64,000 nucleotides of DNA, from contig JAKLIP010000001.1 of the NCBI GenBank assembly GCA_022709545.1, forward strand, positions 1 to 64,000, in the 5' to 3' direction. Source of the stretch: Patescibacteria group bacterium. Lineage in GTDB: Bacteria; Patescibacteriota; Minisyncoccia; Moranbacterales; GWC2-37-73. Below the pieces are notes generated by a model, which saw only the letters and a list, made by a program, of their open reading frames with translations, was not told where the DNA came from and searched no databases. Of this stretch, positions 53,113 to 61,879 are shown one piece after another; the stretch's first letter is position 1; each line of letters begins with the position of its first letter. Made by a program: the position numbers and the translations under genes.

Positions 53113-53213
53113 TACCCCCACACCAAATTCAGAGATTTTGTGGGCTATATTTTTTAGGCTATTATGGCCTTAATAAGCCAAAATATTCAACTTTTTAGGT
53201 TTTGGTGTGGGGG
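53113..53213. repeat. Inverted-repeat element (ACCCCCACACCAAA type) upstream of tRNA-Leu
   Basis: CCCCCACACCAAA (53115-53127) and TTTGGTGTGGGGG (53201-53213) are perfect inverted repeats around ~73 bp with no ORF and an inner GGCT-ATTA/TAAT-AGCC hairpin. The same ends, with shared flanks TTTACCCCC and GGGGGCG, enclose the tRNA-Arg at 61011-61137. It resembles a miniature inverted-repeat element. The rest of 53043-53296 shows nothing else. Confidence 0.75.
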
Positions 53214-60984: not shown

Positions 60985-61010
60985 ATAATTGTGCGCTTGG
61001 CAGGAATTTT

Positions 61011-61137
61011 ACCCCCACACCAAAAATTAAAGAATAACTTGTGTCCTTGGCTGGAATCGAACCAGCGGCCTTCTGGACCGCAACCAGACGCTCTATCCAC
61101 TGAGCTACAAGGACATATTTTGTTTTGGTGTGGGGGC
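61011..61137. repeat. Inverted-repeat element enclosing tRNA-Arg
   Basis: CCCCCACACCAAAA (61012-61025) and TTTTGGTGTGGGGG (61123-61136) are perfect 14-bp inverted repeats. The intact tRNA-Arg lies between them. The same repeat pair is at 53113-53213 around noncoding DNA. Confidence 0.85.
61042..61114 (-). tRNA. tRNA-Arg (anticodon GCG), intact
   Basis: 73 nt. Acceptor GTCCTTG/CAAGGAC, D-arm GCTC/GAGC, anticodon loop TTGCGGT, variable AGGCC, T-arm GCTGG-TTCGATT-CCAGC, discriminator A, no encoded CCA. A 47-bp stretch (61065-61111) is identical to 61144-61190 of the outer copy. Confidence 0.92.
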
Positions 61138-61270
61138 GTGCCTGCGGCCTTCTGGACCGCAACCAGACGCTCTATCCACTGAGCTACAAGCGCTTAATAA
61201 TCAATAACAGATAACTTACAACATAAAACAAAAAATAGCAATTACTAAAAATGCCACAGATTTGTAGTTA

Positions 61271-61879
61271 TTATAAATGCAGAACTCTTTCAATTGTATT
61301 TATTAGACTCGGATTCTGTTTTATTTCAGGAATATTTTGCATAAGCAAATCACGCAATTTTACCGGGTCTTCATCTTCAATTGGAATATGTACAAAAGGC
61401 AAGACAGATGCCTTTGTATGCAAGCTGATAACTCTTGTGTGGTTAGGTTCGTAAAAAATCCAGAAAGAAAAGATATTTTCATATGAATAAAATTGTCTGT
61501 CGGCTAGCACGCCTTTTGATGTTATGCAAAAATTTACTATACGCGGATCCTTTTGCGCATATATATAGCCTACAATTCCGATTAGAATAAAAGTGATTGC
61601 CATAATTGGAGCATTTGTAAAAATAGCATAAATAACCATTATGAAAATAAACAAGCCAGCAGCAATATACCAGTTTCTTGACTTCTCGTATAATTCAAAC
61701 TCTGGAGCTTTCCAGGAATAAAAAATTTCGCCTATGTTTTGGATCAGATTGTCTTCAACAAAATTATTTTGTTCTTCCTGTTCATTTTTTATTTCATACT
61801 CAAAACTATCCTCTACAATAAAATCGTGTACTTCCGTATCTTGTGTTTTATTTATTTTTTTTCTTAGGTCAAAAGGCAT
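61271..61879 (-). CDS. Two-helix membrane protein of unknown function
   Basis: A 202-residue protein. An acidic N-terminal region (1-60) precedes YSWKAPEFELYEKSRNWY, two adjacent membrane helices at about 72-90 and 92-110, and a C-terminal soluble domain with a PH-like beta pattern (ITSKGVLADRQFYSYENIFSFWI). The EF-YEKS-W-Y-TM pattern is frequent in candidate-phyla genomes without known function. It is divergent from the tRNA-Ser promoter. Confidence 0.75.
   Translation of the reverse strand: MPFDLRKKINKTQDTEVHDFIVEDSFEYEIKNEQEEQNNFVEDNLIQNIGEIFYSWKAPEFELYEKSRNWYIAAGLFIFIMVIYAIFTNAPIMAITFILIGIVGYIYAQKDPRIVNFCITSKGVLADRQFYSYENIFSFWIFYEPNHTRVISLHTKASVLPFVHIPIEDEDPVKLRDLLMQNIPEIKQNPSLINTIERVLHL

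Follow-up and report, generated by a model that had tools for sequence, protein, structure and literature searches.

A tRNA-Arg(GCG) gene of a Patescibacteria group bacterium is split in its T loop by an insert that holds a complete tRNA-Arg(GCG) between inverted arms, and we consider it probable (roughly 0.7) that this locus represents a copy of a mobile palindromic element whose promoterless tRNA cargo replaces the cognate gene broken by the insertion. The locus occupies positions 61193-60992 on the minus strand of the window, i.e., the whole 64,000-nucleotide stretch of DNA that was analyzed. The 5' part of the outer gene (61141-61193) runs from the acceptor strand GCGCTTG to the T-stem strand GCAGG and is followed by a left junction, CACG (61137-61140), where the T-loop TTCG would be expected. 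There follow, on the same strand, the 14-nt left palindromic arm CCCCCACACCAAAA (61123-61136), 8 further nucleotides, the complete inner tRNA (61041-61114; called by ARAGORN and scoring 72 bits against the Rfam tRNA model), another 15 nt, and the right arm TTTTGGTGTGGGGG (61012-61025), complementary to the left one. The right junction, TAAA plus ATT (TAAAATT, 61005-61011), leaves a residual 7-nt T loop, and the outer gene closes with the T-stem strand CCTGC, the acceptor strand CAAGCGC and discriminator A (60992-61004).

Measured between the outer T-stem strands, the insert spans 136 nt, close to the 140 nt or so given by the first-pass annotation. The outer tRNA pairs perfectly across it, in both acceptor (7/7) and T stem (5/5). 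Inner and outer genes have a 43-nt body in common and differ in acceptor (GTCCTTG vs GCGCTTG) and T stem (GCTGG vs GCAGG); the outer 5' part by itself also scores as a tRNA in Rfam (34.5 bits, with a cut-off of 29 bits). As RNA, the nested locus folds stably (z = -4.96), and none of 200 shuffled versions was as stable. The architecture drawn in the first-pass annotation, with an outer gene that stops after GCAGG and resumes at ATT-CCTGC, stems that pair across the insert and differ from those of the inner copy, and a complete tRNA bounded by a 14-bp inverted repeat, was correct in every detail checked.

The inner copy appears to carry the decoding function in this genome (G000; 1.02 Mb in 17 contigs, completeness 98%). 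Rfam returned 48 tRNA matches, the outer fragment among them, and apart from the inner gene none of the typed matches was a tRNA-Arg with a GCG or ACG anticodon. The inner tRNA is therefore the only reader of CGU/CGC found at that completeness. Likewise, in four relatives with related arrangements (G117, G120, G020 and G508), DNA searches with the inner tRNA gave no further match of Arg(GCG) type over the full length. A promoter scan upstream of the outer tRNA revealed no convincing promoter.

To compare orthologous sites, the region was taken from about 100 relatives in the order, with homologues of the 202-aa ORF upstream of the tRNA (61271-61879, minus strand) as the marker. Intact genes of the GCGCTTG or GCGCTTA type, the uninterrupted outer form that the first-pass annotation proposed to look for, are common in the order, so its reading is not refuted by a lack of genomes with the outer tRNA intact. 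Within one genus (g59), G119 has an intact, uninterrupted GCGCTTA-type tRNA-Arg(GCG) at the orthologous locus, G117 has the same gene split in the T loop by an arm-tRNA-arm insert, and in G120 the outer 5' half is gone while inner tRNA, right arm and outer 3' end remain. Read from sequence, these three genomes line up as empty site, insertion and decay. In G020, from another family, the nested structure is like that of G000, but the arm sequence differs (CCCCGTCACTTAT/ATAAGTGACGGGG) and so, clearly, does the outer tRNA-Arg. Its 104-nt insert is only 1 base apart from that of G508 while the outer genes of the two are widely different, so the insert acts like a single mobile unit, passing from one lineage or locus to another. 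G117, G120 and G508 have one and the same 73-nt inner tRNA, and because G117 and G508 share this tRNA but not their arms, cargo and arms can evidently be exchanged and do not always travel together.

Other relatives show further rearrangements around the same gene. Partial tRNA copies adjoin it in some of them. In many others (L035, L036, L038, L041, L042, L044, L051, L107, L114 and L130) a structured stretch of ~170 nt (GTGAGTGAACGATTTCACTCAC...) comes after the tRNA-Arg(GCG). At its far end the 3' end of this tRNA is directly repeated, in a form that matches the acceptor stem of its own genome, and the stretch looks like a separate small integrated element.

The arms are not confined to tRNA genes. 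Among 124 genomes of the order, 35 contain the repeat TTTGGTGTGGGG; the reversed control pattern is nearly absent. Facing pairs 42-130 bp apart are seen in many genomes, with at least seven in G020 and about five in G106; by this pattern G119 has none. The arms are 13-17 bp long, and most arm-paired copies enclose no tRNA. One such copy, of 97 bp, lies in the window itself (53115-53213, with the pair at 53116-53212), 84 bp upstream of a tRNA-Leu(CAG), and has tRNA-type ends (TTTA...CGAG). Many other copies without tRNA lie in frame within conserved genes, namely those for RF1, TatD, UvrA, ValRS, PriA, YbeY, YchF, a glycosyltransferase and an epimerase, with an element length that is a multiple of three wherever the ORF is open on both sides. 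In their commonest frame, the arms encode PHTK and FGVGV, the sole recurring peptides, and the insides of these 42-130-bp copies are mutually unrelated. The RF1 and TatD copies show as extra residues in alignments with solved homologues. Flanking four-mers match in a few copies (TTTA/TTTA or TAAA/TAAA) and differ between the two sides in most. The idea that the PriA copies are introns with in-frame stops was dropped after a frame check showed open in-frame translation. Between the orthologous in-frame PriA copies of G106 and G107 (L265 and L267), differences amount to 0/24 positions in the arms, 10/54 in the insides and 28/240 in the flanks, a weak hint of arms constrained in place that is too slight to support a claim.

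Pattern searches place the tRNA-bearing form in a larger family. When GTDB genomes were scanned with a pattern derived from three cases of nested tRNA-Arg, 51 matches came back, nine of which either had 13 or more paired positions in the arms or enclosed a tRNA. These nine hold tRNA-Gly, tRNA-Pro and several Arg isoacceptors, and the named carriers among them are Patescibacteria (Moraniibacteriota, Wolfebacteria and BMS3Abin15). A looser pattern, with arms CCCCNCACC/GGTGNGGGG around GTTCRA and the outer gene left unconstrained, gave 23 matches among 124 order genomes, spread over 15 of them, and 10 among 380 phylum genomes, spread over 8; its reversed control matched none in either set. Scans of viral collections yielded chance matches only, none with a tRNA inside. 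With these dropped, there are 38 distinct Patescibacteria loci, each with a complete tRNA between arms. The nested architecture is not a product of chance, as it recurs in many genomes and reversed control patterns give 0 matches. The carried tRNAs comprise Arg (GCG, TCT, CCT, TCG and CCG), Gly (CCC), Pro (TGG, GGG and CGG), Ala (CGC), Val (GAC, TAC and CAC), Glu (TTC and CTC), Leu (TAG and CAG), Thr (CGT) and Ile (TAT). The inserts measure about 100-140 bp, with the tRNA as their sole content and no integrase gene inside. All genomes are MAG sequence. Four of the viral loci (L195, L201, L202 and L203) carry, near phage genes, a hairpin GGGG-TGAAA(A/T)T-CCCC whose heptamer resembles a T loop; it may be a small RNA motif that has nothing to do with the inserts.

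Insertion sites and cargo follow common rules. By manual assignment from the flanks, the insert lies in the T loop in about 14 loci, the anticodon loop in 11 and the D loop in 7, and the remaining flanks are decayed or truncated; almost no tRNA-bearing copies were found outside tRNA genes. For 25 loci, a flank matches a tRNA from another source at ≥35 bits. The amino acid is the same as that of the inner tRNA in 23 of them, and inner and outer genes lie on the same strand in every one. When flanks were joined in silico and typed with ARAGORN, the outer isoacceptor was identical to the inner one in 10 of 13 typed loci; the other three (L147, L178 and L282) have Arg-like bodies with altered anticodon arms. 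The loop loses its center: TTCR in T loops, the anticodon and a neighboring nucleotide in anticodon loops, and GG in D loops. Unrelated cases have similar junctions, with CACG...TGAA for T loops and TTCA...CAAG or CGAG for anticodon loops. The outer tRNA genes of L276, L076, L277, L281 and L312 contain additional, unrelated palindromes, one example being CCTGCCTGCCGGTAGGCAGG in a D loop; in these genomes, palindromic repeats of other kinds thus also invade tRNA loops. On the minus strand of L171, a facing pair CCCGCACCAAAT...ATTTGGTGCGGG without a tRNA lies about 100-190 nt upstream of a nested tRNA-Pro, just upstream of the outer tRNA.

Two loci carry the arrangement one step further. In L274 (G025; 1412-1710) and L269 (G117; minus strand, around 500-720), a tRNA-Ala(CGC) sits in the anticodon loop of a second Ala tRNA, which itself sits in the anticodon loop of a third. 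The Ala tRNAs are divergent in each layer, so the three layers of L274 are not copies of one another; in its two outer layers every stem and the G3:U70 pair are intact. The nested Ala RNA folds as drawn (z = -6.77). Judged from these sequences, serial arrival of foreign cognate tRNAs, and not tandem duplication, explains the triple nests.

The steps by which such loci might arise can be outlined. An element of about 100-140 bp, consisting of arms TTYA-CCCCNCACC...GGTGNGGGG and a promoterless tRNA gene, would insert itself into the resident tRNA-Arg(GCG), in its T loop and with the cargo on the strand of that gene. The resident gene would be destroyed, the carried tRNA would come under its promoter and supply Arg(GCG), and the outer halves would persist as a relic that later decays. 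Ordinary 5' and 3' processing enzymes would free the inner tRNA from the precursor, and repeated insertion into T, anticodon and D loops of cognate genes, including that of the newest copy, would yield a triple nest. We infer that the element moves by transposition, that the inner tRNA is transcribed from the outer promoter, and that ordinary RNase P and 3' enzymes process this tRNA. The first-pass annotation had offered, as one of two readings, an insertion element that carries a tRNA and takes the place of the gene it breaks; this one gains support from the dispersal of the arms, the intact site in G119, the inner tRNA as sole Arg(GCG) gene in G000 and the missing outer 5' half in G120. Against it count the flanking four-mers that mostly differ between the two sides, the mutually unrelated insides of tRNA-free copies, which a usual MITE family would not show, the different arms around one inner tRNA in G117 and G508, and the perfect stems that several outer genes retain.

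Since the resident single-copy tRNA is destroyed, the copies that survive would be those with cognate cargo on the transcribed strand. Survival alone would thus account for the agreement in identity and strand but not for the preference for loop centers or the scarcity of tRNA-bearing copies in neutral DNA; it is likely that the element in addition targets hairpin loops or cognate sequences. We propose more tentatively, at rather less than even odds, a dedicated mobile system in which a tRNA-carrying element, guided to its target by its cargo or the transcript thereof, selects cognate hairpin loops and then breaks and replaces the gene, becoming essential to the host.

The other reading in the first-pass annotation, an intron-like insert, would have the arms and inner tRNA excised and the outer halves rejoined, or else a two-piece outer tRNA, with both tRNAs functional. 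Several features fit it: the inserts sit in hairpin loops; the outer stems are fully paired in G000, G117, G020, L179, L278 and the layers of L274; and the nested RNAs are predicted to fold stably, the arms holding the outer halves together. The perfect stems kept in L274, L276 and L278 could reflect youth or constraint. With TTCR turned into CACG/TGAA in T loops and the anticodon itself lost in anticodon-loop cases, removal of the insert would not restore a complete tRNA, because the outer copies lack conserved loop nucleotides. Moreover, G120 has dispensed with the outer 5' half and its sole Arg(GCG)-type match is the inner gene, the outer genes of L146, L168, L285 and L317 are broken, visual inspection revealed no bulge-helix-bulge motif, and a group I intron would be longer than these intervals. 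An intron-like insert is accordingly disfavored and we rate it as improbable. An RNA-level role of the outer halves, as a two-piece tRNA or a processing scaffold, may hold in individual genomes; as a general rule, it is contradicted by the sequences of G120 and of the four broken loci.

T loops and anticodon loops are classical attachment sites for integrases. The inserts might accordingly be remnants of genomic islands, brought by a tyrosine recombinase acting at these loops together with a spare tRNA and now reduced to a miniature, and the direct repeats of the tRNA 3' end at related loci would suit such an origin. Yet no attachment-site direct repeat brackets the nested inserts, whose junctions are CACG/TGAA; no larger, gene-bearing version was met and the small size is similar in many genera; and protein genes, too, contain these arms in frame. 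We give this origin an equally low chance.

It is very unlikely that the arms are recombinase sites at which an enclosed native segment flips. The occurrence of the same arms around unrelated insides does recall multi-locus inverton systems, but G117 differs from G119 by added arms and tRNA and not by orientation, the RF1 and TatD copies add residues relative to solved homologues, and inner and outer tRNAs share a strand wherever they could be matched. A simple tandem duplication, or conversion of one tRNA copy by another, combined with an inverted repeat that arose by chance, would fit the near-identical inner and outer bodies of G000 and G117 and the partial copies beside the gene in other relatives, but is scarcely credible given paired arms that recur in 38 loci and outside tRNA genes, control patterns without matches, and the mutually divergent Ala layers of L274.

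The preferred reading, a mobile palindromic element with tRNA cargo, has partial counterparts among known systems. Rickettsia palindromic elements (RPEs; Ogata 2000, cited in PMC10969869) are likewise short, palindromic, dispersed and in frame in essential protein genes. Each of their families has a common sequence and a conserved peptide, whereas only the arms are shared here, with no conserved full-length element or peptide. Like MITEs, the present copies have terminal inverted repeats, a length of 40-140 bp and no ORF of their own; their flanks resemble target duplications in a few copies and differ between the two sides in most. Unlike in MITEs, their insides are non-homologous between copies, a complete tRNA is carried inside a cognate tRNA gene, and no parent transposon came to light among unpaired arms in loci of 1-3 kb. 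A review covering MITEs and RPEs nowhere mentions tRNA (PMC10969869). Integrative elements at tRNA sites also insert in tRNA genes and restore function with their own sequence, but what they restore is the tRNA 3' end, whereas here a whole tRNA lies inside the broken one, within about 100-140 bp that carry no integrase gene and no attachment-site repeats.

Intron-containing, split and permuted tRNA genes of archaea are similarly disrupted with pairing halves, and a mobile-element origin has been proposed for a tRNA-Thr of Caldiarchaeum (PMC3978253, PMC3293823); the present genes differ in being bacterial, in enclosing an intact cognate tRNA and in having an outer gene that is dispensable in G120. 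tRNA-Sec in selB is also a tRNA gene nested in another bacterial gene, though its host is a protein gene and not a cognate tRNA (PMC8124441). RPEs, MITEs, tRNA-site integrative elements and disrupted archaeal tRNAs each share features with the present loci and fail at least one tested defining feature. On the best reading of the sequences, the element resembles RPEs or MITEs and fits neither. The open-access papers searched, a set that lacks many subscription papers, contained no description of cognate tRNA genes nested in the loops of bacterial tRNAs.

These findings point to a route for the in-place replacement of essential single-copy tRNA genes, apparently by mobile DNA and repeatedly across Patescibacteria. 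Loss of an element that supplies the very function it destroys would kill the host, which would explain its persistence. The loci bear on the turnover of tRNA genes, the gain of foreign acceptor stems and the origin of disrupted tRNA genes, as well as on how tiny genomes tolerate insertions in core genes, and tRNA annotation of Patescibacteria will meet such half-genes and nested copies.
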